From Rhodothermaceae bacterium (lineage in GTDB: Bacteria > Bacteroidota > Rhodothermia > Balneolales > Cyclonatronaceae), in NCBI GenBank assembly GCA_020201275.1, contig JAIVHB010000129.1:11255-58545 (forward strand): a DNA stretch of 47,291 bases, read 5' to 3'. Of the stretch, positions 34 through 38,281 are shown one piece after another. Each line of letters starts with the position of its first letter. Within the stretch, counting starts at the first letter, position 1. Made by a program: the position numbers and the translations under genes. Under the pieces are notes generated by a model that was not told where the DNA came from, ran no database searches, and worked only from the letters and a program-made list of their open reading frames with translations.

Positions 34-990
34 TCACTCACCCCTTACAATCACAATCGCCGTCCGTACCGGTCTTTCACCTTCCCGGTCGAACACCCTG
101 TTATCACTGGGATGGTTCACCACACCGCTGCCATCGATATACATTGTACTCGACCCGCCTCCGTCGAGGTTCACCGCATCGGTGCAGCCTAAGTGATGCA
201 TCAACTGTGCAAGTTCGGGCAGGGTAAAACCGATCGCATCGCGGTGCCGCCCGTCGGCAACCAGCAGTATTATGTAACGGTCGTTCGTGAGGCAAACCGA
301 CGTTCTCGGATGGCGCAGTCCCGAATGGCGGATTTCACGGGCAGAGCGCCAGCGTCCGCTCTTAACCGGTTCCGGGATGACGCCACCGTCGATCAGCCGG
401 TGTGCCCCGGCGAGCGCACTCACGGCTTCCGGCCAGTCGGCTGCCCACGCATTATCCTCGCGGTTCTTGAAGATCCAATTACCGCCGGCATCCAGACCGA
501 AGGCCGAACTGCCCACAAACCGCAGCTCTTCCGGTTCTTCCCGGGTGAAGGGCCACACGGTGCCCTGCCATTTAAAAATCCCGGAATTGACCTCTTCCGG
601 ATGGTCTGAGAAGAAGCCGCCGTTCACAACGGCCAGCGCGGGGTGCCTTGCTGCGAATTCCGATGGTCGCATAAACCGGGTATTGGCGTAATTCGCATCA
701 TCCAAAGTGATGTCCGGATTAACCCGGGGAATTCCGTTTGTGTTGCCCGATGCAGCAAACCGGATCCGCCGCGCCGCCGTATCGGCCTGCATCACCAGCA
801 GATTGATGTACTGAGGCGCTCCATTCAGCCTCTCGAAGGCCGCATACTGCCAGGCGATACCTGGAGCAAGTTCAACGTGCTCCCAGACGCCATCCTCAAG
901 GCCCGGATATCCGCCCTGACCGGCAACCGGCACGGCCAGCCCCGCCAGTACCATTCCACAAATCAACAAATTAATTACTCTATTACTCAA
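34..990 (-). CDS. DUF2233/NAGPA-type phosphodiester glycosidase, secreted
   Basis: 318 aa. Residues 1-25 form a signal peptide (hydrophobic stretch NLLICGMVLAGLAVPVAG). The rest shows the landmarks of the NAGPA/DUF2233 family: VVNGGFF near residue 122, RTSVCLTNDRYIILLVADGR in the second half, and the glycine-rich NLDGGGSSTMY close to the C-terminus. The family includes the human enzyme that removes GlcNAc from GlcNAc-1-phosphodiesters, and a Bacteroides homologue has a known structure. The bacterial substrate is usually unknown. The start is TTG at 988-990, whose last two bases are part of the TGA stop (987-989) of the upstream namZ-like gene, so translation is probably coupled. It is the last gene visible in the susC-susD-namZ operon. 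A role in cleaving sugar-1-phosphodiester bonds of cell-wall glycans is inferred from family and context. Confidence 0.85.
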   Translation of the reverse strand: MSNRVINLLICGMVLAGLAVPVAGQGGYPGLEDGVWEHVELAPGIAWQYAAFERLNGAPQYINLLVMQADTAARRIRFAASGNTNGIPRVNPDITLDDANYANTRFMRPSEFAARHPALAVVNGGFFSDHPEEVNSGIFKWQGTVWPFTREEPEELRFVGSSAFGLDAGGNWIFKNREDNAWAADWPEAVSALAGAHRLIDGGVIPEPVKSGRWRSAREIRHSGLRHPRTSVCLTNDRYIILLVADGRHRDAIGFTLPELAQLMHHLGCTDAVNLDGGGSSTMYIDGSGVVNHPSDNRVFDREGERPVRTAIVIVRGE

Positions 991-2075
991 AAAGCATGCA
1001 TCAGATGCACACCCGCCTCCATCGGCCTCACCACGTACGAATCGGTAACCACAATGCGAACACCGTGAACCGTCTGCCCCATCAGCCTTGGACTGGTCGA
1101 CATGCCCTGTATGCTCTGAGGTGTATACGTTGCCGGCTCGAAACGCAGGCCCGGCAGTTCGCGAGCGTTCAGATCGGCCGCCAGTGCCACCGGGTCGCCC
1201 CAGAGCGTTCCGACCAGCCTGAAGGGCTCCATCGTTCCTCTTCCCTCGTTTCCGGTTACGCTCCCGAAGAAGCAGGCCCCGGGATAGATCACAGCCGTCT
1301 CAAAGTCGGGGATGTTCGGACTGGGCGGAATCCACTCCAGGCCCGTCTCCGGCCAGAGCATTTCGCGGCTCCATCCCTTCATCCCAATTACAGTCAGATC
1401 AAGTCCATCCATGCCGTCGAGCAGAGGGAAGTCTTTCAGCATCAGCGCGATCTCGCCGATGGTCATGCCATGCGTTGCCGGTATCTCGTACATGCCGATA
1501 AAGGATGTGTGCTCGGGCTCAAGCGTGAAGCCTTCCACACGCCCGCCGATGGGATTTGGCCGGTCAAGCACCATGAAGCCGATGCCTGCCTCTGCTGCCG
1601 CCTGCATGGCCAGTCCCATTGTGTTGATATAGGTATAAAAACGCGTCCCTACATCCTGCATGTCGAACACCAGTATATCGATGCCATCAAGCATCTCCGG
1701 CGTGGGCTTGTAGGTGTCACCATGCAGGCTGAACACCGTAAGGCCCGTACCGGGATCGGTCTCGGTGATGATTTCCGCCCCCGCATCGCCCATACCCCGA
1801 ATGCCGTGCTCCGGCGCAAACAGGGAAACCAATTCCACATCCGGCGACCGGTGTATGAGGTCGGCCAAATGGTGTTCTCCCACCATGGAAGTATGGTTTG
1901 TGATGAGGCCTACACGCCGTCCGTGCAGCTCCGCGAATCCGTTATCGGTCAATATGAGGGCCCCGATCGTTACGACCGTATCACCGATATCACTGTTATA
2001 ACGTGGCACATCGCCCGTACATCCGCCGCATGAAAGAACAACAGTGAGGGCGAGAACTATAATGGCGTTTTTCAT
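987..2075 (-). CDS. NamZ-like exo-N-acetylmuramidase lipoprotein, copy 1, C-terminally truncated
   Basis: 362 aa from ATG 2073-2075. The frame is open further upstream to 2216, but the start chosen gives a lipoprotein signal MKNAIIVLALTVVLSCGGC. DUF1343 (GH171; NamZ, an exo-beta-N-acetylmuramidase in Tannerella and Bacillus) is recognised from VGLITNHTSMVG, FAPEHGIRG, VFDMQDVGTRFYTYINTMG, LDRPNPIGG, PPSPNIPDFETAVIYPGAC and NEGRGTMEPF. Compared with the two paralogues beside it, the protein stops right after GVHLMHAF. The roughly 61 C-terminal residues present in copy 2 are absent, and the stop overlaps the TTG start of the downstream glycosidase gene. The N-terminal catalytic landmarks are all present, so it may still be active, or it may be a decaying copy. 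Expected location is the periplasm or outer membrane, lipid anchored. Confidence 0.85.
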   Translation of the reverse strand: MKNAIIVLALTVVLSCGGCTGDVPRYNSDIGDTVVTIGALILTDNGFAELHGRRVGLITNHTSMVGEHHLADLIHRSPDVELVSLFAPEHGIRGMGDAGAEIITETDPGTGLTVFSLHGDTYKPTPEMLDGIDILVFDMQDVGTRFYTYINTMGLAMQAAAEAGIGFMVLDRPNPIGGRVEGFTLEPEHTSFIGMYEIPATHGMTIGEIALMLKDFPLLDGMDGLDLTVIGMKGWSREMLWPETGLEWIPPSPNIPDFETAVIYPGACFFGSVTGNEGRGTMEPFRLVGTLWGDPVALAADLNARELPGLRFEPATYTPQSIQGMSTSPRLMGQTVHGVRIVVTDSYVVRPMEAGVHLMHAF

Positions 2076-2222
2076 AGGTGTTCGTAATACCACCAATGAC
2101 CTCCTCCACAAACACTTCACGGTTCTAATGTTCAACTGTTCATTTGTTCGAAAGCATACTAACAGCTCCGTTGTTGTCACCACTAAAAATCTGCACCCCG
2201 GGACGGGCTGCATCACCTGTCG

Positions 2223-3479
2223 CTAGTATAAAAAATACCGCCTGCGAATCTGATCATACACCTCAAGTTCATCCGCCCATGAGGCAATCACTTCCTCCGC
2301 GGTTGCACCTGCCGTAAACATATCGGCTACCCGGTCAGTGCCGGCCAGCCTGCCGACGCGTGGACGATTGAAGAAATCGGCCTTTTCACTGTCTGGCACC
2401 TGGCTCCAGAAAGCGTGGATAATATGCATCCCGGCGGCAACCGGCCGCACAGCGTGCATATCGGTTACCACGTGGCGGATGCCCTGCACTTCAACGCCCA
2501 TATGCTTGGCCCGTGTGGCCATGCCCGGAATAGATTCCGGCGTGTAGGTAACCGCTTCAAATTCCAGGCCCGGCAGGTTTCTCGCGTTCAGGTCGGCAGC
2601 CAGGGCTTCACCATCTGCCCAGGGTGCACCCAACATGATGAATGGCTCGTACGTACCCCGCCCTTCGCTGGCACTCAAACCTTCGAAGTAGCAGGCACCG
2701 GGATAGATAAGCGCGGTCTCGAACGTCGGGATATTCGGGCTGGGCGGGTTCCAGTCGTCAGCGTATTCCGGCCAAAGACTCGTTCGATCCCAGTTCTCCA
2801 GCTCTGCAACGTGCAGATCGAGGTTTTCAAGGCCTGGGAGCCAACCTTCGCCTTTCACCATGTTGGCCAGTTCGCCAATAGTGACACCATGGGTAACGGG
2901 AATCGGGTAGTACCCGACGAACGACTCAAATCCGGTCTCACGAACATGTCCTTCTATCAGGTCGCCAAGCGGATTCGGACGGTCGAGCACCATAAATGAT
3001 ATACCAAGCTCGGCTGCAGCTTCCATACCCTTTCCCATGGTCGATATGTATGTGTAGAAACGCGGACCAATATCCTGGATGTCGAATACCAGCACATCAA
3101 TTCCTTCAAGCATCTCCGGTGTCGGTTTCAGGGTCTCACCATAGAGGGAGTACACCGGCAGCCCGGTCGCTTCGTCGGTCTGAAAGTCGATTTTGTCGCC
3201 GGCCGGTGCATCCCCCCGGATGCCGTGCTCAGGACCATACAGAGCAACCACATTAACCTCTGCAGCCTCATGCAGGATGTCGGCAATATGTCTGTCGCCT
3301 ACAGTAGCTGTGTGATTGGTAATAATTCCGATGTTTTTACCGGCAAGAAAGCCAAAATCATTCTCGATCAGTACTTCAGCACCAGTCTTCAAAACCGGTG
3401 TTTCAGGTTGTTGCTGTGGTTTCGGTTCACAGGCAATGATCACTAAAGCCAGACCGAATACGGGTATCAGGTATTTCAT
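2223..3479 (-). CDS. NamZ-like exo-N-acetylmuramidase lipoprotein, copy 2
   Basis: 418 aa with a lipoprotein signal (MKYLIPVFGLALVIIAC, lipobox I-I-A-C). DUF1343/GH171 motifs in order: IGIITNHTATVG, LYGPEHGIRGDAPAG, VFDIQDIGPRFYTYISTMG, MVLDRPNPLGD, PVTHGVTIGELA, NPPSPNIPTFETALIYPGAC, SEGRGTYEPF, then a complete C-terminal part ending YDQIRRRYFLY. Characterised family members remove terminal MurNAc from the non-reducing end of peptidoglycan fragments. It is the middle of three tandem paralogues, about 147 bp upstream of copy 1 and 58 bp downstream of copy 3. It appears intact and is the best reference copy of the three. Confidence 0.9.
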   Translation of the reverse strand: MKYLIPVFGLALVIIACEPKPQQQPETPVLKTGAEVLIENDFGFLAGKNIGIITNHTATVGDRHIADILHEAAEVNVVALYGPEHGIRGDAPAGDKIDFQTDEATGLPVYSLYGETLKPTPEMLEGIDVLVFDIQDIGPRFYTYISTMGKGMEAAAELGISFMVLDRPNPLGDLIEGHVRETGFESFVGYYPIPVTHGVTIGELANMVKGEGWLPGLENLDLHVAELENWDRTSLWPEYADDWNPPSPNIPTFETALIYPGACYFEGLSASEGRGTYEPFIMLGAPWADGEALAADLNARNLPGLEFEAVTYTPESIPGMATRAKHMGVEVQGIRHVVTDMHAVRPVAAGMHIIHAFWSQVPDSEKADFFNRPRVGRLAGTDRVADMFTAGATAEEVIASWADELEVYDQIRRRYFLY

Positions 3480-3537
3480 TTGTGGGTAGTGTTTGGTGGA
3501 TATTAACAGGCTCTGCCCTCTTCAGGCAATCTTGCCA

Positions 3538-4833
3538 TTATGGATAGATAAAGTAGTTGCGGCGCTGCAGGTCATATTTCTGCAGATCCTCGCCCCAATA
3601 TTGTATAATTTCTTCTGCCGTGGCACCGCTTTCAATCATTTTATAGAGCTGGTCAGTTCCGGCAAGGCGCACGATGGCCGATTTCCTGGGTCCTCCGATA
3701 CGGGACTGTCTGCCTTCCTGAGGCGGATTAAAAAATGTCGTTTTCTCATTTTGCGGTGCATGGTGGTAAAAAGCGTGAAGAACATGAACGCCGGCTTCAA
3801 CCGGACGAACCAGGTCCCTTTCGGTAATAACATAGCGAATTCCCTGCACCTCAGTGCCCATGTATGTGGGATTCATTGCCATCCCGGGAATACTTTCCGG
3901 GATAAATTCTGCCTTCTCAAATTGAAGTCCGGGCAGGTTGCGGGCGTTGAGATCTGCGGCTATAGCCTCTCCGTCGGCCCAGGGTGCACCGAGCTGAATA
4001 AATGGTTCATGGGTGCCGCGCCCTTCACTGGCACTCACACCCTCAAAAAAACAGGCACCGGGATAGATCAGTGATGTTTCAAAATCGGGGATGTTGGGAC
4101 TGGGTGGATTCCAGCTCAGGTTAAGGTCCGGCCATGTCATGGCACGGCTCCAGTTCTGCATTTCTACAATATGAAGGTCCAGTCCGGAAATTCCATCCAC
4201 CATCCCCTCACCTTTAACCATGGCGGCCAGTTCTCCGACCGTAAGGCCGTAGACAACCGGAATGGGGAGATAGCCTACAAAGGATTCAAATTCCTTCTCC
4301 CGTATGAAACCGTCGGTCAGTTCACCTCCGAGAGGATTTGGCCGGTCGAGAACCATAAAGGAAAGGCCTGCATCAGCCGCGGCTTCCATGCCCATAACCA
4401 TCGTGGTCAGATAGGTGTAGAAACGCGCACCAACATCCTGAATGTCGAAAACAAGTACGTCAATGCCATCCAGCATTTCGGGTGTCGGTTTGTGGATGTC
4501 GCCGTACAGTGAATAGACCGGCAGCCCGGTGGCCTCATCTGTCTCAAACGTTATTCTTGCTCCGGCAGGCGCATCTCCGCGTATGCCGTGTTCGGGCCCA
4601 AACAGGGCAACCACATTTACATCATCAGCCTCGTGCAGAATATCGGCAATATGCCGGCCACCAACGGTAGCGGTATGATTGGTGATGATTCCAATATTTT
4701 TTCCTGACAGGAAGCCAAAATTTTGCTCAACAAGCACTTCTGCGCCTGTTTTAAAGGTTCCAGTTTCATTTTTTGGATCAGCCTGGCAGGCTGTGAATAG
4801 CCATGCCAGGCTGATTATGATTGCAAACTTCAT
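3538..4833 (-). CDS. NamZ-like exo-N-acetylmuramidase lipoprotein, copy 3
   Basis: 431 aa from ATG 4831-4833, chosen over the longer open frame (to 4869) because it gives a lipoprotein signal MKFAIIISLAWLFTAC and leaves 16 bp after the susD stop. All DUF1343/GH171 motifs are present (IGIITNHTATVG, FGPEHGIRGDAPAG, VFDIQDVGARFYTYLTTM, DRPNPLGGE, NPPSPNIPDFETSLIYPGAC, SEGRGTHEPF). Relative to copy 2 there is an in-frame insertion of about 14 residues (QSRIGGPRKSAIVR) just before LAGTD in the C-terminal part. It is the first enzyme gene after susD, so it is probably the most strongly translated of the three. Function is known for the family; the reason for three copies is not. Confidence 0.9.
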   Translation of the reverse strand: MKFAIIISLAWLFTACQADPKNETGTFKTGAEVLVEQNFGFLSGKNIGIITNHTATVGGRHIADILHEADDVNVVALFGPEHGIRGDAPAGARITFETDEATGLPVYSLYGDIHKPTPEMLDGIDVLVFDIQDVGARFYTYLTTMVMGMEAAADAGLSFMVLDRPNPLGGELTDGFIREKEFESFVGYLPIPVVYGLTVGELAAMVKGEGMVDGISGLDLHIVEMQNWSRAMTWPDLNLSWNPPSPNIPDFETSLIYPGACFFEGVSASEGRGTHEPFIQLGAPWADGEAIAADLNARNLPGLQFEKAEFIPESIPGMAMNPTYMGTEVQGIRYVITERDLVRPVEAGVHVLHAFYHHAPQNEKTTFFNPPQEGRQSRIGGPRKSAIVRLAGTDQLYKMIESGATAEEIIQYWGEDLQKYDLQRRNYFIYP

Positions 4834-4849
4834 CTTAAACGGATCCGCA

Positions 4850-6118
4850 TCAGAGATTCGGATTTCCATTAATTTCGCTGAGCGGAATGATCATGCATCG
4901 GGAATTGCCGTAAACGGCATTGCCAACCGGATAGGCACCGCTGGGAAATTCATCAACACCGTAAAGGTTCAGGTAACGGCGCATATCGCCGAGACGCTGA
5001 ACCGTAAGGAAGAAGTCGCGGGCTTTTTGATCACGCAGTTCCGCCATCAATGCATCGCCGGTCAGGTTGACCGCTGCCTGTCCGCCCACGTCACGGCGCT
5101 CGTTAACAAAGGTAAGCGTAGCACCGGTAGGGCCATTCGCTTCAGCCACGATATAACGGGCTTCAAGGCCGGAAGAGAACAGATAGCCTGTATTCAGATC
5201 AATAGCCTCGGGGGTTGCAGCACTCCAGCCCTGATATGAACGGGGACGATATGGCAGGAAAACCTCGTTGGCATTCAATCCGAACGACGGCGTTTCAGGA
5301 TGTCTTACCCTGGGGTCGTTCAGGTTCCGAAATTTTGGATCGATACCCATCCATGGGTCAGAACTGATCCACTGCGCCGCATTGATATTGGTTTCCCTTG
5401 ATGAGTTCGAAGACCTGTATACCCATGCTTCAAAGTCGGCCGGTACCTGTGTGGCAAAACTGGCGGCCTCCGTCATATTACCAAGCTGCAGATTTGCTCT
5501 GGCTATTCCAACCCTGGCAATATTGGTGATTCTGCTGGCCCGGGCCGCATCGGTAGCCTGACCCGCAGCAGCCCTTGTAATGGCCTGCTCGAAGTTGCCA
5601 ATTGCCCGGTCAAGAAGCTGTTGCCAGGTTTGTGCCGGGCCTCCGTTGATGGGCGCTTCACAGAAATGCAGTCCAAGCATCAGATTGGCATAGCCCGCGT
5701 AGGCATACGACTCTGCCGCATTTAACGGATTGCCTTCTGCAAAACCGGCAATACGCCCCGCTGCATCTTCTGCAGACACACGTGCTTTCTGAAGGAATGT
5801 ATATGTATTGCTGTTCAATATATTATTTGTCCTTACATCAAACAGGGCCCACTCACGATGATCGATATTGGTGTGGTCTGTATAAACCTCATCGCTGAGA
5901 ATGCTGGCTGTCAATGTCATATAGTTGAACGCGTACTGAAACTCGCTCAACACGCCGTTCACGATCAGCTGCTCCAGCTTCGGATCGCTCAGCTGATCGA
6001 GCTCAATAGCCCCGGGATCACTTACTTCCAACAGATCACCACAAGACGTAAGCAGGGCAATTCCTGCCAGCGTCACGACTAACATCTGTATTCTGATGGT
6101 TTTCATTATTTTGTTCAT
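4850..6118 (-). CDS. susD: RagB/SusD-like outer-membrane glycan-binding lipoprotein
   Basis: 422 aa, lipoprotein signal with lipobox LLTSC (residues about 22-26). The following CGDLLEVSDPGAIELDQL, the helical TPR-like middle (AESYAYAGYANLMLGLHF, IGNFEQAITRA, RVGIARANLQLGN) and the C-terminal RDFFLTVQRLGDMRRY...CMIIPLSEINGNPNL are typical of SusD proteins, which form the extracellular lid over a SusC porin and bind the transported glycan or peptide. At about 420 aa it is on the short side for the family. It lies 37 bp downstream of the TonB-dependent receptor and 16 bp upstream of namZ copy 3, so it should be co-transcribed with both. The ligand is inferred from the operon to be a cell-wall fragment. 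Confidence 0.93.
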   Translation of the reverse strand: MNKIMKTIRIQMLVVTLAGIALLTSCGDLLEVSDPGAIELDQLSDPKLEQLIVNGVLSEFQYAFNYMTLTASILSDEVYTDHTNIDHREWALFDVRTNNILNSNTYTFLQKARVSAEDAAGRIAGFAEGNPLNAAESYAYAGYANLMLGLHFCEAPINGGPAQTWQQLLDRAIGNFEQAITRAAAGQATDAARASRITNIARVGIARANLQLGNMTEAASFATQVPADFEAWVYRSSNSSRETNINAAQWISSDPWMGIDPKFRNLNDPRVRHPETPSFGLNANEVFLPYRPRSYQGWSAATPEAIDLNTGYLFSSGLEARYIVAEANGPTGATLTFVNERRDVGGQAAVNLTGDALMAELRDQKARDFFLTVQRLGDMRRYLNLYGVDEFPSGAYPVGNAVYGNSRCMIIPLSEINGNPNL

Positions 6119-9766: not shown

Positions 9767-10633
9767 GTGGAAACTACATCACTACGAATCGCTATTCAAA
9801 AAAGCGGGCGGCTTACTGAAAAAACAACAAATCTGCTTGAAAATATTGGTCTTAAATTCGACGGCTTTAAAGACAGGCTCCTAGTCAGAAGTCTGAACTT
9901 CGATGTGGAATTGCTTCTCATCCGCGATGACGATATCCCTGAATATGTACAGGATGGCATATGCGATCTGGGTATCGTCGGGGCTAATGTATCCCTTGAA
10001 AAAAATGCCGATGTGGAAGTTATCCGCGATCTGCAGTACGGTATGTGCCGCCTGTCGGTAGCCGTGCCCAAGTCGTCTGGATTCCATAACTTGCAGGATC
10101 TTAACAATAAACGAATCGCAACCAGTTACCCGAATCTTACCCGGAAATACTTCAGCAGCAGGGGCATCGATATTAAGATCGTTGAAATATCCGGTGCAGT
10201 TGAAATAGCACCCCGGCTGGATGTAGCCGATGCAATCGTTGATCTTGTCTCTTCCGGGGGAACGCTGAAAACGAACGGCTTGCAGGAAATGGAAATTATC
10301 CTGCACTCGCAAAGCCAGTTGATCCAGACCAGAAAACAGATTCCTGCCGAGAAGGAAGAACTCATCAACAAGTTCCTGATCCGCATTAACGGGCGTCAGC
10401 TTGCCGAACGCAGCCGGTACATTATGATGAATGCCCCGAGGGAGTCCCTGGATGTTATCTCTAGTCTCATCCCCTCTCTTAAAAGTCCAACCATTCTGCC
10501 GCTCGCCGATCCAGACATGATCGCAATTCATTCAGTTATCCCAACCGATAAATTCTGGGAAGTCATGGAAGAACTTAAAGCAGCCGGTGCATCAGGCATT
10601 GTAATGCTGCCAGTAGAAAGCATGATAGTGTGA
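9767..10633 (+). CDS. hisG: ATP phosphoribosyltransferase, long form
   Basis: 288 aa, GTG start. Catalyses the first step of histidine synthesis, ATP + PRPP to phosphoribosyl-ATP. The N-terminus [15 protein letters not shown], the segment [20 protein letters not shown], and the PRPP-binding region [19 protein letters not shown] are diagnostic. The length and the C-terminal part ([41 protein letters not shown]) match the long HisG form, whose ACT-like C-terminal domain binds histidine for feedback inhibition and which needs no HisZ. First enzyme gene of the operon; its stop overlaps the hisD start. Confidence 0.97.
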
Positions 10634-11928
10634 TGAGCATCCGCATCTATAAATATTCCGGTTTATCCGGTAGCGAGCTGAAATCACTGCTCACAAGACC
10701 AAAAATTGATTTCAGCCAGATATTCGGAATCGTACAACCCATTATCGACAACATCCGCAAAGACGGCGACAGCGCCCTTCGTGCTTACACACTCAAATTC
10801 GACCAGGTACAAATCGAAAAACTGCTTATTGATGTACCGGCAGCGGATTCCATCGATTTGCCCGCCAGGGTCAGGTCCGCTTTCGATGTGGCCTGTTATA
10901 ACATACGGATGTTCCATCTTGCGCAGGTATCCCCTCACCTCAGGGTTGAGACAATGGCAGGCGTAAAATGCAGCCGCCAGGCAAGGCCCATAGGGCGGGT
11001 CGGTCTATATGTTCCCGGAGGTACCGCTGTATTGCCATCAACCGTTCTTATGCTTGCCGTTCCGGCAGTACTGGCCGGCTGCAGCGAAATAGTACTGTGT
11101 ACACCACCCGGCAAGAATGGTACCGTTTCACCTGAAGTACTATATGCAGCCGCCATTGCAGGGGTTTCCAGAATCCTGCTTGCCGGAGGTGCCCAGGCTG
11201 TTGCCGCACTTGCCTTCGGAACAGAATCTGTACCGAAAGTGGATAAAATTCTCGGGCCGGGCAACCAGTATGTTACAGCTGCCAAGATGCTGCTGCAAAA
11301 CAGTGAGGCTATGGTTTCCATTGATATGCCGGCCGGACCGTCAGAAGTTCTGGTTATCGCCGACCGGCATGCCAATCCGGCCTATGTTGCAGCCGATATG
11401 CTGTCGCAGGCAGAACATGGTGCCGACAGCCAATCGGTGCTTGTACTTGCCGGGGTTGAATCAGAACGCCCTTTCCTTGACGAAATAGCGCGGCAGCTCG
11501 CCGAACTGCCGCGCCGGGAAATAACCGAAAAAGCGCTCAAAAACAGCTTTGTGATTCAAACAGATACCATACAGGAGGCCATCGACTTCAGCAACCTTTA
11601 TGCCCCGGAACACCTCATTCTCAATATAGACCAGGCCAGTGATTATACCCCGAAAATCGCTAATGCCGGTTCGGTATTTGTCGGACAATGGTCGCCTGAA
11701 AGTGTGGGCGACTACGCATCGGGAACAAATCACACTCTGCCTACTTATGGGTTTGCCAGAATGTACAGCGGGGTTTCACTCGACTCCTTCCTCAAACAGA
11801 TAACGTTCCAGGAACTTACACCTGAAGGCCTGAAAGTGCTCGGCCCGCACGTTGAGGTAATGGCGGAAACCGAAGGCCTAACAGCCCATAAAAACGCGGT
11901 AACCCTCCGGCTTAGGGATATCTCATGA
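10630..11928 (+). CDS. hisD: Histidinol dehydrogenase
   Basis: 432 aa. Performs the last two oxidations, L-histidinol to L-histidine, using NAD and zinc. Motifs seen: [110 protein letters not shown], and [22 protein letters not shown] near the C-terminus. The frame begins with GTG 10630 immediately followed by ATG 10633. Either start overlaps the hisG stop, so hisG and hisD are translationally coupled. Confidence 0.97.
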
Positions 11929-13010
11929 AATCAGAAAAACCGACAATGCAGACCGCTGATGGCAGCTTTGATCTGAAGCGTTTGATCAGGCCCAATATAC
12001 TGGGTCTGACCCCATACCGGTCGGCCCGCGACGATTTTAAGTCGGGCTTGCTGCTCGATGCCAACGAAAACAGTTTCGGATCAGCTCTGGGCGACCATGA
12101 ACTAAACCGCTATCCCGACCCAAGGCAGGAAAAGTTACGATCCTTGGTGGCAACATTCAGGAATGTGCAGCCTGACCAGGTTTTTTTGGGCGTTGGAAGC
12201 GACGAACCCATAGATCTGTTGATCAGAATTTTCTGCCGGCCCGGATCAGATCGCATAATTATCACTCCGCCAACCTACGGTATGTACAAGGTGAGTGCAA
12301 ATATCAACGATGTGGGGGTTGATGAAGCTCCGCTTAATCCCGATTTCAGCATTGATGCAGATAATATCAGGTCAAGATCCGGAGATCTTCAGAAAATCCT
12401 TTTTCTCTGTTCCCCCAACAATCCCACTGCAAATAATCTGGACCGGAGCCGGATTACGGAGATCATCACTTCATTCAAAGGTATTGTAGTTGTGGACGAG
12501 GCCTATATCGACTTCAGCTCTGCTGAAAGTATGCTCACGGAACTGAACAGATTTCCCAATCTCGTGGTGTTGCAGACCATGTCGAAATCGTTCGGGTTGG
12601 CTGCAATACGTCTTGGGATGGCATTTGCAAGTTCCGGCATAATCGATATTATGAACAGGGTGAAAGCCCCGTATAATGTGAACAACCTGACAGCTGCCGC
12701 AGCTATCGAGGCTATCAAAGATGTAGGTGTCATGAAACGGCACATCAGGGATATTCACAATGAGAGGATACGGCTGGCTGGTGAATTGGTACTAATAACC
12801 GGCGTTCAAAAAATCTTCCCGAGCGATGCCAATTTCCTGTTGGTCAGAATCAACAATGCACAGGATGTCTACCGCAGACTGGCCGGAATGGGAATTATTG
12901 TACGTTACCGCGGTGATCAGATACACTGCGATAACTGCCTTCGTATAACCGTTGGTACACCGGATGAAAACAGCAGGCTGATCAGTGCCCTTAAAGAGGT
13001 ACTTGAATGA
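11925..13010 (+). CDS. hisC: Histidinol-phosphate aminotransferase
   Basis: 361 aa, fold-type I PLP enzyme converting imidazole-acetol phosphate to histidinol phosphate. Recognised from [40 protein letters not shown], the PPTYGMY block, [21 protein letters not shown], and the PLP-lysine segment [19 protein letters not shown], with the arginine-containing C-terminal [11 protein letters not shown]. The ATG overlaps the hisD stop (ATGA), and its own stop overlaps an ATG beginning a 54-codon ORF. Length is normal for the family. Confidence 0.97.
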
Positions 13011-13171
13011 TAAACCGTTATGATGCCATAATGCCGACGCTGTTCCGGAATATGAATTGCGGCAACTGCTGGTCTTACCGGTCAACAAACATGCCTGATC
13101 ATTGTGTGGATGCAGTATTTTTGACAACTTTCCCAAACAACGTTACCAACCGGATTGAGGATTTTTCATGA
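13007..13171 (+). CDS. Unrecognised 54-aa ORF coupled to hisC and hisB
   Basis: 54 codons from ATG 13007-13009 to TGA 13169-13171. The ATG overlaps the hisC stop in an ATGA arrangement, and the stop overlaps the hisB ATG (13168-13170) in another ATGA. Such exact four-base overlaps at both ends are what a translated operon member would show. The protein begins [20 protein letters not shown], is rich in Cys and Asn, and ends HCVDAVFLTTFPNN followed by VTNRIEDFS. I recognise no family. It sits exactly where the phosphatase half of HisB should begin, so it may be a leftover of that domain in another frame, or just spacer that happens to be open. Confidence 0.4.
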   Translation: MINRYDAIMPTLFRNMNCGNCWSYRSTNMPDHCVDAVFLTTFPNNVTNRIEDFS

Positions 13172-14046
13172 GTACCATCAGAATAATGGCTGAAACCATT
13201 GCCGGACCGGATGGCGATCCGTTACCGGGTGTAATCACTTCCATGTATGACCTGCAGAAAGCCGGTTTCACATTTCTAACGGGTACTTTGCCACAGCATA
13301 TTACAACCCTGCTACACAATGAAGGTATTGTGATTGCCGGCCCTGAGATTGAAGATGTTTCGGAAGAATATCCGGTAATAGAAAAAGACGGGAATCAGCT
13401 CATACTGAGAATGATGGATCAGACGCAGGGATTTGACAACTGGAATGAACTGGCCCTCCGGCTCATCTCTCCTCCAAGGTCGGGGTCGGTGAAACGTGAT
13501 ACCCGGGAAACCCATATTTCCGTTGAACTGAACCTGGATGGGTCGGGACAGTTCTCATGCCAGACCGGTCTTGGATTTTTCGATCACATGCTCGAGCAAA
13601 TTGCACGCCATGGTGAGATCGACCTGCACATACTTTGCGACGGCGATCTGCATGTTGATGAGCATCACACTGTCGAGGATGTAGCCCTCGCTCTAGGCAC
13701 CGCACTTGATCAGGCCTTCGGCGACCGGCGCGGAATTGAGCGTTACGGATTTGTACTTCCCATGGATGAAAGCCGGGCCACTGTTGCCCTGGACCTTTCC
13801 GGCCGTCCTTACCTCGTATTCGAAGCTGCCTTCGGCCGCGACAAGGTGGGAGATCTTCCAACGGAGATGGTCAAACACTTCTTCTACTCACTTGCAATGA
13901 ACCTGAGGGCAACCCTCCATTTCGAGGTGAAGGGTGAGAACGATCATCATATGATAGAAGCCTGCTTTAAAGGATTTGCCAAATGCCTGAAAGCCGCCAA
14001 ACTCCGTACCGGATACGGTATTCCAAGTTCAAAGGGAGTTTTGTGA
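13168..14046 (+). CDS. hisB: Imidazoleglycerol-phosphate dehydratase with degenerate phosphatase-like N-terminus
   Basis: 292 aa. Residues from about 110 to the end are a complete IGP dehydratase: RDTRETHISVELNLDG, TGLGFFDHMLEQIARHG, HVDEHHTVEDVALALG, RYGFVLPMDESRATVALDLSGRP, KGENDHHMIEACFKGFAKCL and the C-terminal GIPSSKGVL, with the paired metal-binding His motifs intact. Residues 1-109 are not a free-standing leader. Residues 19-39 (LPGVITSMYDLQKAGFTFLTG) resemble the helix and strand that follow the catalytic loop in the HAD histidinol-phosphatase half of E. coli HisB. The nucleophile motif D-x-D-G-T, the Cys/His zinc loop and the G-D-x-x-x-D motif are all missing. Dehydratase activity is well supported; phosphatase activity is very unlikely. 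Confidence 0.95.
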   Translation: MSTIRIMAETIAGPDGDPLPGVITSMYDLQKAGFTFLTGTLPQHITTLLHNEGIVIAGPEIEDVSEEYPVIEKDGNQLILRMMDQTQGFDNWNELALRLISPPRSGSVKRDTRETHISVELNLDGSGQFSCQTGLGFFDHMLEQIARHGEIDLHILCDGDLHVDEHHTVEDVALALGTALDQAFGDRRGIERYGFVLPMDESRATVALDLSGRPYLVFEAAFGRDKVGDLPTEMVKHFFYSLAMNLRATLHFEVKGENDHHMIEACFKGFAKCLKAAKLRTGYGIPSSKGVL

Positions 14047-14047
14047 T

Positions 14048-14662
14048 ATGATTGCCATCGTGAACTATAAAGCCGGTAATCTGGCCTCCGTTTCGAATGC
14101 CCTTGATCGCCTCGGTGCAGAGCATGTGATATCCAGCAAGGTGGATGAACTCGAGAGTGCCAGCGCTGTGATCTTTCCCGGAGTTGGTCATGCGCAGGCA
14201 GCAATGAAGTCTTTGTATGAAAATAATCTGACGGAATGGCTCATAAATACTAAAAAACCACTGCTGGGTATCTGCCTTGGGATGCAGCTGTTTTTCGAAT
14301 CATCTGATGAGGGAGATACCAAATGTCTTGGTATAATTCCCGGAAGACTCCGCCTTTTCAGCGGCGATAATGTTAAAGTACCGCATATGGGCTGGAATCA
14401 TTTCGGCTCTCTGAGCGAGCATCCCCTGCTCGACGGGATTACCTGTGAAGATTATTTCTATTACGTACACGGCTATTATGCACCGGTAACCGATTATACC
14501 ATTGGATCCTGCAGCTACGACATTGATTTCAGTGCTGTTGTAGCCCGCGACAATTTTGTAGGGGTGCAGTTTCATCCTGAAAAATCAGGAACAAACGGAG
14601 TGAAACTGCTGCAAAACTTTCTGGATTTTGCCGGTGTACAATCCAAAGTTTTAAAGGTCTGA
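14048..14662 (+). CDS. hisH: Imidazole glycerol phosphate synthase, glutamine amidotransferase subunit
   Basis: 204 aa, class I glutamine amidotransferase that feeds ammonia to HisF. The start MIAIVNYKAGNLASVSNAL, the oxyanion-hole region FPGVGHAQAAM, the nucleophile Cys in LLGICLGMQLFFE, and the His-Glu pair in GVQFHPEKSGTNG are all in place. One base separates it from the hisB stop and two bases separate it from hisA, so it is part of the same transcript. Its synthase partner hisF is not next to it but 7 kb downstream. Confidence 0.97.
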   Translation: MIAIVNYKAGNLASVSNALDRLGAEHVISSKVDELESASAVIFPGVGHAQAAMKSLYENNLTEWLINTKKPLLGICLGMQLFFESSDEGDTKCLGIIPGRLRLFSGDNVKVPHMGWNHFGSLSEHPLLDGITCEDYFYYVHGYYAPVTDYTIGSCSYDIDFSAVVARDNFVGVQFHPEKSGTNGVKLLQNFLDFAGVQSKVLKV

Positions 14663-14664
14663 AT

Positions 14665-15387
14665 ATGATGCGTATAATTCCGGCCCTGGACCTGCTCGAC
14701 GGCCGTATTGTCAGGCTTAAACAGGGTGATTATAAACAGGTTACCGTTTACAGCGACGATCCTGTATCAATGGCTCTCACCATTATGGAAGCAGGTTTTA
14801 ATCACATTCACCTGGTCGATCTGAATGGAGCAAAACACGGAGAATTCACCAATCTGCAAATAATTCGGGATATCATCGGAGCCACCGGCCTGTCTGTTCA
14901 GGCTGGCGGGGGTATACGCTCCTACCGAGACTGTGAAATCCTGTTTGAGGCGGGCATAAACAAGATAGTTTCAACATCTATGGCCGTACGCAACGAACCC
15001 GACTGGATGAAGGCCCTGTCAGTTTTTGGTGACAAATGTATTCTTGGAATGGATCTCAGAGATGGGAAAATTGCTCTATCCGGCTGGCTTGAAACGGCTG
15101 AAGAGAGTGCCGATTCCTTTCTGTCCCGCATGGTTGAATCCGGGCTCAGGGAAGTACTTTGTACCGATATCAGCCGAGATGGCATGCTAACCGGCCCAAA
15201 TTTTGACTTGTATAATAATCTGCTCGGCAAATTTCCCGGAACTCAGTTCATCGCGTCTGGTGGTGTTAGCAGTTTCAAAGACCTGGAAATACTTAAAACA
15301 TCCGGTGTTCACGCTGTGGTGGTTGGGCGTGCAATGCTGGAGAACAGAATATCTCTTAAAGAGATGTCTGACTTGCTCAACACCTAG
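14665..15387 (+). CDS. hisA: ProFAR isomerase
   Basis: 240 aa (beta/alpha)8 barrel that isomerises the ribosyl moiety of ProFAR to PRFAR. The first catalytic Asp lies in IIPALDLLDGRIVRL, and the second acid lies in the C-terminal half in LCTDISRDGMLTGPN. Phosphate-binding segments VQAGGGIRS and IASGGVSSFKDLEIL are also present. An AAAGG sequence lies about 10 bp before the ATG. It is the last gene of the first his block; a hairpin about 110 bp further on may end the transcript. Confidence 0.96.
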   Translation: MMRIIPALDLLDGRIVRLKQGDYKQVTVYSDDPVSMALTIMEAGFNHIHLVDLNGAKHGEFTNLQIIRDIIGATGLSVQAGGGIRSYRDCEILFEAGINKIVSTSMAVRNEPDWMKALSVFGDKCILGMDLRDGKIALSGWLETAEESADSFLSRMVESGLREVLCTDISRDGMLTGPNFDLYNNLLGKFPGTQFIASGGVSSFKDLEILKTSGVHAVVVGRAMLENRISLKEMSDLLNT

Positions 15388-21715: not shown

Positions 21716-22477
21716 ATGCTTGCAAAACGAATAATTCCGTGCCTCGACATTAAAAACGGCAGAACAGTCAAGGGTGTTAACTTTCTCGGGCTCCGCGATG
21801 CCGGCGATCCTGTGGAATTAGCCACCCGCTATTCCTTGGAAGGTGCCGATGAACTTGTTTTTCTTGATATTACAGCCACCAACGAAAAAAGAAAGACCCT
21901 GGTAGAACTCGTACGCGCGATCGCCCGCAATATCAACATCCCCTTCACTGTTGGCGGCGGTATACAATCGGTCGAAGAGATTGAGGATCTGCTACATGCA
22001 GGTGCTGACAAAGTATCTCTGAACAGTTCAATTATTCTTGAGCCGGAGCTGATATCCAGATCTGCAGCACGGTTTGGCAGTCAATGCATCGTTGCCGCGA
22101 TAGATGCCCGAAGACATGGCGACTCGTGGAACGTGTACACCAGGGCCGGAACCATTGACACCGGTCTGAACGTGCTGGCCTGGTGTAAAGAGGTGGCAAA
22201 ACTCGGAGCCGGCGAGATACTGCTTACCAGTATGGACAGAGATGGTACAAAATCGGGTTTCGACAATGTGCTCCTTTCAAAAATTGCAGGTTCAGTTTCC
22301 ATACCTCTCATAGCAAGCGGCGGGGCCGGAACCATTGAACACTGCATCGATGCTGTTACAAATGGGCATGCCGATGCCATTCTTGCCGCAAGTATATTTC
22401 ATTTCCGGGAAATCGAAATCGGATATCTCAAACAGGCAATGAACCAGGCCGGAATTCCTGTTCGACTCGTAGCATAA
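21716..22477 (+). CDS. hisF: Imidazole glycerol phosphate synthase, cyclase subunit
   Basis: 253 aa (beta/alpha)8 barrel. The start [22 protein letters not shown] contains the first catalytic Asp, and [19 protein letters not shown] contains the second. [17 protein letters not shown] and [18 protein letters not shown] bind the phosphates, and [19 protein letters not shown] is also typical. It closes the imidazole ring using ammonia from HisH. With hisIE, 24 bp downstream, it forms a second his block away from hisGDCBHA. Confidence 0.97.
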
Positions 22478-22501: not shown

Positions 22502-23113
22502 ATGAATCCAACCGAACTCAAATACGATCAGAATGGCCTTATACCCGCCATTGTACAGGACAGCGTTACCCGCCAGGTACTCATGTTGGCCTTCATGAAT
22601 CGTGAATCTCTTCAGAAAACCCTCGACACGCGGCTGATAACATTCTACAGCCGAAGCAGGCAACAACTGTGGACCAAGGGTGAAACCTCCGGGAATACAC
22701 TTGAACTGGTACAGATACAAGCCGACTGCGATTCCGATACGTTACTGGTAACGGCGAAGCCCAACGGCCCGGCATGCCATACCGGAAACACATCCTGTTT
22801 TTTTGAGAATGAATTCAGGATAGAAGAATCATATGGATTCCTTAAACAACTTGAAGACCTTCTGCGCAACCGTAAACATGAAATGCCGGAAGGATCCTAC
22901 ACCAGCAGAATGTTTGCCAAAGGGCTCGACAAAATCACCCAGAAAGTCGGTGAAGAAGCAATTGAAACCGTAATCGCGTCAAAAAATGATGATGAAGGTG
23001 AATTTATTTATGAAGCTTCCGACCTGCTCTTTCACCTGATGTTGCTGATGGTGGAAAAAGAAGTACCGTTCGCCAGGCTAATAGATGAACTCGAACGTCG
23101 GCACAGTAAATAG
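22502..23113 (+). CDS. hisIE: Bifunctional phosphoribosyl-AMP cyclohydrolase / phosphoribosyl-ATP pyrophosphatase
   Basis: 203 aa. The N-terminal HisI part (residues 1-110) shows [42 protein letters not shown], and the zinc/substrate Cys residues in [10 protein letters not shown] and [11 protein letters not shown]. The C-terminal HisE part (about residues 115-203) shows [34 protein letters not shown] and [14 protein letters not shown]. It carries out steps 2 and 3 of histidine synthesis. Overall length and domain order match the fused enzyme of Bacteroidota. Confidence 0.96.
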
Positions 23114-36220: not shown

Positions 36221-38281
36221 ATGAAATGGTCAATACTTCCTCTCATCCTGATTATTCTTACAACCCATCTGTACGGTCAATCCATTACCATTGATGACAA
36301 TGGGATAGTGAAGTGTAAAGGAGTGGAAATCGGAACTACCGAAGTCGTCAATGGCGATACGTATGAGGTAGTCGACAGAAACCTGTTGATTCAGAGAAGA
36401 GATGAGGGAGCAGATCTCACAAAGGTGTGTGTGAGTAATGTTACGAATATGAGTGAGATGTTTTATCGGAGACAATTCAACCAACCCATTGACAATTGGG
36501 ATGTGAGTAATGTCACGGATATGAATTCGATGTTCAAACAAAGTCAATTCAACCAACCTATTAACAATTGGAATGTGAGTAATGTCACGGATATGAATTA
36601 CATGTTCCAAGAAACTCCATTCAACCAATCGATTGTGGATTGGGATGTGAGTAATGTGATGTTAATGAAAGGGATGTTTGGTAGTACTCCATTCAACCAA
36701 CCAATTGGAAATTGGGATGTGAGTAACGTGACGGACATGAGACAAATGTTTATGAATTATGATAGTCAATTCGACGAACCAAATCGCATTAAATTTAACC
36801 AGCCCATCGGGGATTGGAATGTGGGAAATGTGACGAACATGAGTGAAATGTTTGCCGGAGGTAATTTCAACCAGCCCATCGGGGATTGGGATGTGGGGAA
36901 TGTGACTGACATAAGTCTGATGTTTGCAAACAGTCCATTCAATCAACCCATCGGGGACTGGGACGTGAGTAATGTGTCGGATATGAATGGTTTGTTTCGT
37001 GAAAGTGAATTCAACCAACCCATCGGGGACTGGGACGTGAGTAATGTGTCGGATATAGGTGCAATCTTTCGGTTTAGCCATTTCAATCAACCTGTCGGGG
37101 ATTGGGACATAAGTAATGTGACGGATCTGGGTTCAGTGTTTGCAGGTAGTCAATTCAATCATCCCATCGGGGACTGGGATGTGAGCAATGTGACGAGCAT
37201 GAGCGGGATGTTTTCGTGGAGTCAATTCAACCAACCAATTGGGGACTGGGATGTGGGTAATGTGACGTACATGAGTAGCATGTTTAATCTGAGTCCATTC
37301 AACCAACCTATTGGGGATTGGAATGTGAGTAGTGTGACTGATATGAGATGGATGTTTGCACGAAGTCCATTCAATCAACCAATCGGGGACTGGGACGTGA
37401 GTAACGTTACAGCTATGGGTTCGATGTTTCAGGATAGCCCATTCAACCATCCCATCGGGGATTGGGACGTGAGTAATGTTACGAGTTTGGGTGGGATGTT
37501 TGCGGGTAGTCGGTTTAATCAACCCATCGGGGACTGGGACGTAAGTAATGTTATTATTATGGGTTCGATGTTTTGGGCAAGTCAGTTTAATCACCCCATT
37601 GGGAATTGGGATGTTAGCAGGGTCAGGGATATGACTTTACTGTTTCGTAAAAGCCGATTCAACCAACCAATCGGTGACTGGGATGTGGGTAGTGTAACAT
37701 ATATGAGAGAGATGTTTTTTGGCAGTCAATTCAACCAACCCATCGGAAATTGGGATGTGAGTAATGTGATAAATATGGAGACGATGTTTAGGGATAGTCA
37801 ATTCAACCAACCTATCGGGGATTGGGATGTGAGTAGTGTAACCGATATGAGATGGATGTTTTTTGGCAGCAAATTCAACCAACCAATCAATATCTGGTGT
37901 GTGACAGAAATAACATCTGAACCACTTAATTTTTCCGCCGATAGTCCACTTACTGATGAAAACAAACCGAAGTGGGGAACCTGTATTGACACATCCATCG
38001 ATTCCGAAGAAGTACCCGTTCAATTTATATTGAATCAGAACTACCCCAATCCATTCAATCCAACCACACAGATTCAGTACTCACTACCTGTGACTTCCCA
38101 TGTACGTATGGAAGTATTCTCCTTATTGGGTCAATCGGTTTCAGTTCTGGTAGATAATATCATAACAAGTGGAACACATACCGTAACATTCGATGCCAGA
38201 TCCCTGTCAAGTGGGGTGTACATCTACAGATTAACGACTCCGGATTTCAGTCAGACTCGGCTGATGAACCTGTTGAAGTAA
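36221..38281 (+). CDS. DUF285/PARCEL-repeat surface protein with T9SS sorting domain
   Basis: 686 aa. Signal peptide MKWSILPLILIILTTHLYGQ, then a short domain with CKGVEIGTTEVVNGDTYEVV (residues about 30-60). About 20 tandem 24-residue units follow, of the form MF-x-x-S-x-FNQPIGDWDVSNVTDM, and these are the hallmark of DUF285 (BspA-like, also called PARCEL). The unit around residue 185 has a short insertion (YDSQFDEPNRIK). The C-terminus is a type IX sorting domain (LNQNYPNPFNPTTQIQYSLP, then GVYIYRLTTP). The protein should be secreted and attached at the cell surface. Roles in adhesion or binding are suggested for the family but not proven. DUF285 arrays are known to spread horizontally among unrelated microbes. 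Confidence 0.92.
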   Translation: MKWSILPLILIILTTHLYGQSITIDDNGIVKCKGVEIGTTEVVNGDTYEVVDRNLLIQRRDEGADLTKVCVSNVTNMSEMFYRRQFNQPIDNWDVSNVTDMNSMFKQSQFNQPINNWNVSNVTDMNYMFQETPFNQSIVDWDVSNVMLMKGMFGSTPFNQPIGNWDVSNVTDMRQMFMNYDSQFDEPNRIKFNQPIGDWNVGNVTNMSEMFAGGNFNQPIGDWDVGNVTDISLMFANSPFNQPIGDWDVSNVSDMNGLFRESEFNQPIGDWDVSNVSDIGAIFRFSHFNQPVGDWDISNVTDLGSVFAGSQFNHPIGDWDVSNVTSMSGMFSWSQFNQPIGDWDVGNVTYMSSMFNLSPFNQPIGDWNVSSVTDMRWMFARSPFNQPIGDWDVSNVTAMGSMFQDSPFNHPIGDWDVSNVTSLGGMFAGSRFNQPIGDWDVSNVIIMGSMFWASQFNHPIGNWDVSRVRDMTLLFRKSRFNQPIGDWDVGSVTYMREMFFGSQFNQPIGNWDVSNVINMETMFRDSQFNQPIGDWDVSSVTDMRWMFFGSKFNQPINIWCVTEITSEPLNFSADSPLTDENKPKWGTCIDTSIDSEEVPVQFILNQNYPNPFNPTTQIQYSLPVTSHVRMEVFSLLGQSVSVLVDNIITSGTHTVTFDARSLSSGVYIYRLTTPDFSQTRLMNLLK
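36425..37905 (+). repeat. Tandem 72-bp PARCEL repeat array, about 20 units
   Basis: In-frame 72-bp units encode 24 residues each. Some neighbours are nearly identical at the DNA level: the stretches at about 36950-36985 and 37018-37057 share a run covering CCCATCGGGGACTGGGACGT and the bases that follow up to GTGTCGGATAT. This suggests recent unit duplication. The repeat is so regular that minus-strand frames also stay open through it. Confidence 0.93.

Follow-up and report, generated by a model that had tools for sequence, protein, structure and literature searches.

Organization of the his locus

The window, that is, the whole stretch of 47,291 nucleotides analysed here, contains a his gene cluster whose hisB gene encodes a complete dehydratase preceded by about 104 extra residues. 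The relevant features are as follows:

9767..15387, plus strand: hisG-hisD-hisC-hisB-hisH-hisA cluster (names taken from ORF translations; the family test covered hisB)
13168-14046, plus strand: hisB ORF, 292 aa
13168..13479, plus strand: putative pseudo-HAD mini-domain, HisB N-terminus, residues 1-104 (AF2, Foldseek, hhalign, motif counts)
13216..13341, plus strand: HisB residues 17-58, first helix, second strand and second helix (hhalign against intact HAD)
13408..13479, plus strand: HisB residues 81-104, last strand and helix, F-D-N-W-N-E-L...P-P-R (PRK05446 match; conserved W and R)
13480..14046, plus strand: imidazoleglycerol-phosphate dehydratase (IGPD) part of HisB, complete, residues 105-292 (PF00475, NCBIfam)

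The Pfam IGPD profile PF00475 matched residues 133-274 of HisB over the full profile (E 3.2e-63), and the metal-binding His/Glu motifs DEHHTVED and ENDHH were found in the translation. PRK05446, the NCBIfam model for bifunctional HisB, aligned through its positions 144-355 with residues 81-292. This match starts inside the last part of the HAD half, so that this part of the phosphatase can already be recognised in the window's HisB. The alignment identifies residues 81-104 as homologous to the HAD-half end plus linker of bifunctional HisB. Residues 1-111 alone gave no sequence match in Pfam, NCBIfam or the PDB.

The his genes are split within the window. About 6 kb of other genes separate the end of hisA at 15387 from the start of hisF (PF00977) at 21716. 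A 203-aa ORF at 22502, after hisF, may be hisIE.

The mini-domain is a probable relative of the HAD phosphatase half

The mini-domain is predicted to adopt a beta-alpha-beta-alpha-beta-beta-beta-alpha arrangement. Sequence searches of the N-domain against Pfam, NCBIfam and the PDB, singly and with 22 members, returned nothing credible. We compared 73 or 80 intact HisB HAD domains with a profile built from 57 mini-domains and cut before the linker. hhalign gave P 7.1e-6 (probability 84%) for the set of 73 and P 3.9e-7 (93%) for the set of 80, with reversed-profile and dehydratase controls at P 0.2-0.6 overall and reversed controls at 0.2-0.5 for the set of 80, and a global profile alignment covered the whole mini-domain (P 1.3e-6). 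Residues 17-58, which carry the pattern L-P-G-V-I...L..L..AG ... L.NEGI, align with the stretch after the HAD nucleophile loop. The initial annotation had placed residues 19-39 in this region; that match is real, and the profile alignment extends it to about 17-58.

An AlphaFold2 model of the mini-domain, built from an alignment of six pseudo-domains and no intact HAD, reached a pLDDT of 85.3. Foldseek ranked GmhB (4pnh, probability 1.00) first among PDB structures and E. coli HisB-N (2fpr, 0.98), the comparison proposed at the outset, fifth. The best matches had E values of 0.003-0.012 (best 2.9e-3) and a TM of about 0.40, none passing E 0.001, so that the fold evidence for HAD is supportive, not conclusive. 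By the profile comparisons, the mini-domain is a shortened relative of the phosphatase (HAD) half found in bifunctional HisB.

Catalytic motifs are absent from the mini-domain

Across the 57 mini-domains, D-x-D-G (motif I) was found in none within the first 25 residues, against 78-80 of 80 intact HAD domains. Motif III K-P with the zinc loop was likewise absent from all 57, compared with 80 of 80 intact HAD domains, as were motif IV, GD[RS]x[ST]D (78/80 intact domains), and [ST]NQ (78-80 of 80). TIGR01261, the model of the HAD-type histidinol-phosphatase, matched neither the window's HisB nor anything else in its genome. The reported loss of the D-x-D-G-T nucleophile, the zinc loop and the last Asp motif thus extends to every relative in the set, and the description of a shrunken, catalytically empty HAD half in front of a complete dehydratase is borne out.

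No conserved catalytic-type polar cluster is left among the 57 mini-domains. The best-conserved positions are hydrophobic, joined by Glu52, Trp92 and the junction Arg. Glu52 is kept in 56 of the 57 (98%), which counts against a pure spacer, since a spacer would not need such a residue. From its motif content, the N-domain is predicted to be without phosphatase activity.

An IMPase-type HisN is a candidate for the missing phosphatase

With the HAD half predicted to be inactive, histidinol-phosphate phosphatase would have to be encoded outside the window, as had been claimed, and a genome search for a PHP- or IMPase-type enzyme yielded one candidate. A TIGR02067 HisN lies on a separate contig, unlinked to hisB (C152:12084-12815), and scores 272.3 bits against a curated cut-off of 275.15, which is exceeded in 13 of 41 relatives. 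HolPase motif 5 (Asp plus aromatics) and a non-Gly residue at position 219 separate HisN from other IMPases (PMC5516325). The C152 protein reads W-G-D-A-Y-G-H at motif 5, with the Asp and aromatics of IMPase-type HisN (TIGR02067; PMC5516325), and W-D-A-A-A-L at the second site, with no Gly after W-D-x-A-A (position 219). Its last motif-5 residue is His, where verified enzymes have Tyr. The missing histidinol-phosphate phosphatase is very probably this IMPase-type HisN, whose motifs predict histidinol-phosphate phosphatase activity. We know of no experimental test of an IMPase-type HisN in Balneolales.

Two other candidates were rejected. PHP-type HisJ (TIGR01856) was above cut-off in 0 of 41 genomes, and its matches were mostly frames of about 600 aa with a PolX-like look. 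GmhB-type HAD proteins occurred only in some relatives, scored below 80 bits for TIGR01261 and were not found in the window's genome.

A scan of the class found a strong HisN in 69 of 72 genomes of the order, and every one of the 69 genomes whose HAD half is eroded or lost carries HisN; about 20 of these were classed by HisB frame length alone, in one (G120) HisB is only a fragment at the edge of a contig, and the count is of genomes, not of evolutionary events. Strong HisN is missing from three genomes: G164 and G166 retain an intact HAD half, and G133 lacks HisB altogether. When HisN was compared with HAD loss by independent contrasts, the contrasts were too few for significance.

The reduction is old and the domain is under purifying selection

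HisB was detected in 58 of 60 relatives searched, mostly as frames of about 300 residues, and the N-domain spans about 103-107 residues in most Balneolales HisB loci read. Family f3 and G160 have low-complexity insertions within the mini-domain. In one f3 protein (L129) this is a (GQ)n run; other f3 members carry long insertions.

In quick trees of the dehydratase part, Balneolales HisBs fell on one branch in three samplings (SH-aLRT 98, 96 and 92), surrounded by bifunctional HisBs from Gammaproteobacteria and Bacteroidota. A long-branched Bacteroidales protein with an intact HAD (L059) lay within this branch in the first tree, probably through long-branch attraction. Because Balneolales HisBs share one branch, the HAD reduction is ancestral to the order, not recent. 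It is common to the whole order and older than its families, and the earlier suggestion of recent reductive evolution does not hold.

The N-domain gave dN/dS of 0.05-0.33 and the dehydratase 0.01-0.07 in close pairs, dS being saturated in more distant ones. The N-domain is thus under purifying selection and evolves several times faster than the dehydratase. The remnant is retained in frame, as the initial annotation stated: relatives share the same short frame, and dN/dS is below 1.

The mini-domain is wholly missing in G008 and in a HisC-HisB fusion lineage, so full loss has occurred in at least two lineages of Balneolales. The fusions (L034, L036 and L181) are about 630 aa long, belong to one Balneolales lineage and show no trace of the mini-domain. 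A structural role for the domain is possible: its dN/dS is well below 1, yet it can be lost.

Two 1.5-Mb genomes of the order, G164 and G166, encode intact bifunctional HisBs (L177 and L178), which sit outside the Balneolales clade on a long branch; neither genome has HisN. The two proteins are probably a different HisB lineage, possibly a replacement by transfer. Families f8-f10 of the same class have HisD-HisB fusions (L184-L188), whose frames mostly measure 620-690 aa. Among these fusion genomes, HisN is strong in G066 and G162, and none is strong in G065, G072 and G077.

Similar and half-eroded domains occur outside the order

A similar mini-domain was found in ten genomes read of family f26 of the same phylum, and none in two others (G226 and G197). 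We guess that f26 may be the Melioribacter group. HisN was above cut-off in 12 of 12 f26 genomes; in the neighbouring f23, with intact HAD, HisN scores reached only 168-180 bits. The f26 and Balneolales mini-domains matched each other (P 4.9e-11) better than either matched true HAD domains. The dehydratase tree favours two origins of the mini-domain, in Balneolales and in f26. A single origin costs 2.3 log units and is not rejected (p-AU 0.45).

Two HAD halves of about 150 residues are half eroded, one from a gammaproteobacterium (L051) and one from G249 (L213). Their zinc loop is gone, and D-R-D-G-T is replaced by D-G-E-E-T / Q-R-D-G-T in L213 and L051. They appear to be intermediates of erosion. 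The genome of L051 has HisN; G249 combines an eroded HAD half with no strong HisN.

Discussion

We propose that Balneolales HisB derives from a bifunctional HisB made of a HAD phosphatase and a dehydratase. In the Balneolales ancestor, the HAD half would have shrunk to about 100 residues, giving up the nucleophile loop, the zinc loop and the final Asp motif and keeping a small alpha/beta fold without catalysis. Dephosphorylation of histidinol phosphate would have passed to an IMPase-type HisN encoded elsewhere. Purifying selection on the fold and the junction holds the remnant in place, and its most likely role is limited to supporting the structure, solubility or assembly of the dehydratase. 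The remnant is dispensable, because some lineages lost it. We give this explanation as a whole, from ancient HAD remnant to HisN takeover and structural appendage, a probability of roughly 0.8.

The strongest competing view is that the mini-domain is no relic and was exapted for a selected role of its own, such as multimer assembly, docking to HisH, HisC or HisN, or ligand sensing. Retention in nearly all families of the order, a similar domain in f26, the low dN/dS, the near-invariant Glu and the W and R at the junction are all consistent with such a role. However, the N-domain changes several times faster than the dehydratase, its conserved positions are mostly hydrophobic core, and G008, the HisC-HisB fusion lineage and the f26 members G226 and G197 have dispensed with it entirely. 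We therefore consider exaptation possible and do not favour it.

That an unrelated small alpha/beta domain makes up the N-domain and resembles HAD by chance is improbable. A second AlphaFold2 model, of a distant member (L037), matched anticodon-binding domains weakly and not HAD, and for that reason the anticodon-binding fold was tested. The mini-domain profile reached only P 2.4e-3 and a probability of 12% against anticodon-binding domains, several orders of magnitude worse than against HAD, and this fold was rejected; the L037 model itself was set aside because of its low confidence (pLDDT 67.9). Although no member has a credible library match and a 2021 survey saw no similarity to the HisN moiety (PMC8305728), the HAD similarity is seen at either end of the domain and at the same position, and the closest dehydratase relatives are bifunctional HisBs.

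Activity of the shrunken domain on histidinol phosphate through a new active site, which the 2021 authors left open (PMC8305728), is very unlikely. No conserved polar cluster is available, the DxD, Lys and terminal Asp motifs are lost, and HisN is present wherever the HAD half is eroded in the order, including the lineages that lost the domain. That an assembly or start-site artefact of this draft genome (253 contigs) conceals a full HAD domain has next to no probability: we looked for a hidden HAD upstream and found none, an in-frame stop (TGA, 13156-13158) three codons before the hisB ATG and a hisC-hisB gap of 157 nt leave no room for a full HAD upstream, and the same short frame recurs in about 70 independent assemblies, near-complete ones included.

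The short HisB domain itself is not a new observation, because Del Duca et al. (2021, PMC8305728) had reported that the HisB N-terminal domain of four Balneolota and Melioribacter roseus is shorter and does not resemble the phosphatase moiety. They called its role unclear; their PHP, HAD and GmhB queries gave no phosphatase, and IMPase-type HisN was not among the queries (PMC8305728). Their domain is very probably the same as that of the window. The papers we searched contained no later treatment of it. Here the domain is tied to HAD and a HisN is located. What our computations add is the homology that points to HAD ancestry, the loss of all motifs, the order-wide age, the purifying selection and the presence of HisN as a candidate replacement. 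They offer a computational answer to the 2021 question about the nature of the short Balneolota HisB domain and the source of the missing histidinol-phosphatase.

The window's HisB resembles the bifunctional HisB, or His(NB), of E. coli and Bacteroidota in domain order, linker, complete dehydratase and nearest dehydratase relatives, and its HAD half can be recognised by the helix-strand-helix and the C-terminal helix. It differs in the length of the HAD half (about 100 residues, against about 165) and in the loss of the nucleophile, zinc-loop, Lys and final Asp motifs. Dehydratase activity is expected, as for monofunctional HisB, which is without the N-terminal domain of about 104 residues.

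Intact HAD, half-eroded HAD, mini-domain and complete loss may form a natural decay series of a fused enzyme half after takeover by an unrelated enzyme, in which HAD and IMPase enzymes would be interchangeable at one pathway step. Annotation pipelines that name such a HisB bifunctional from its dehydratase would be misled. More tentatively, a dead mini-HAD could have been shaped in Bacteroidota once, and then spread, or twice, and been kept for some benefit to the dehydratase; the mini-HAD would then count as a distinct pseudo-enzyme module that has a function of its own and one nearly invariant Glu.

Elsewhere in the window, three adjacent paralogues of the exo-beta-N-acetylmuramidase NamZ lie at 987-4869 on the minus strand, and the plus strand encodes, at 36221-38281, a 686-aa protein in which seven DUF285 stretches are combined with a Por secretion tail.
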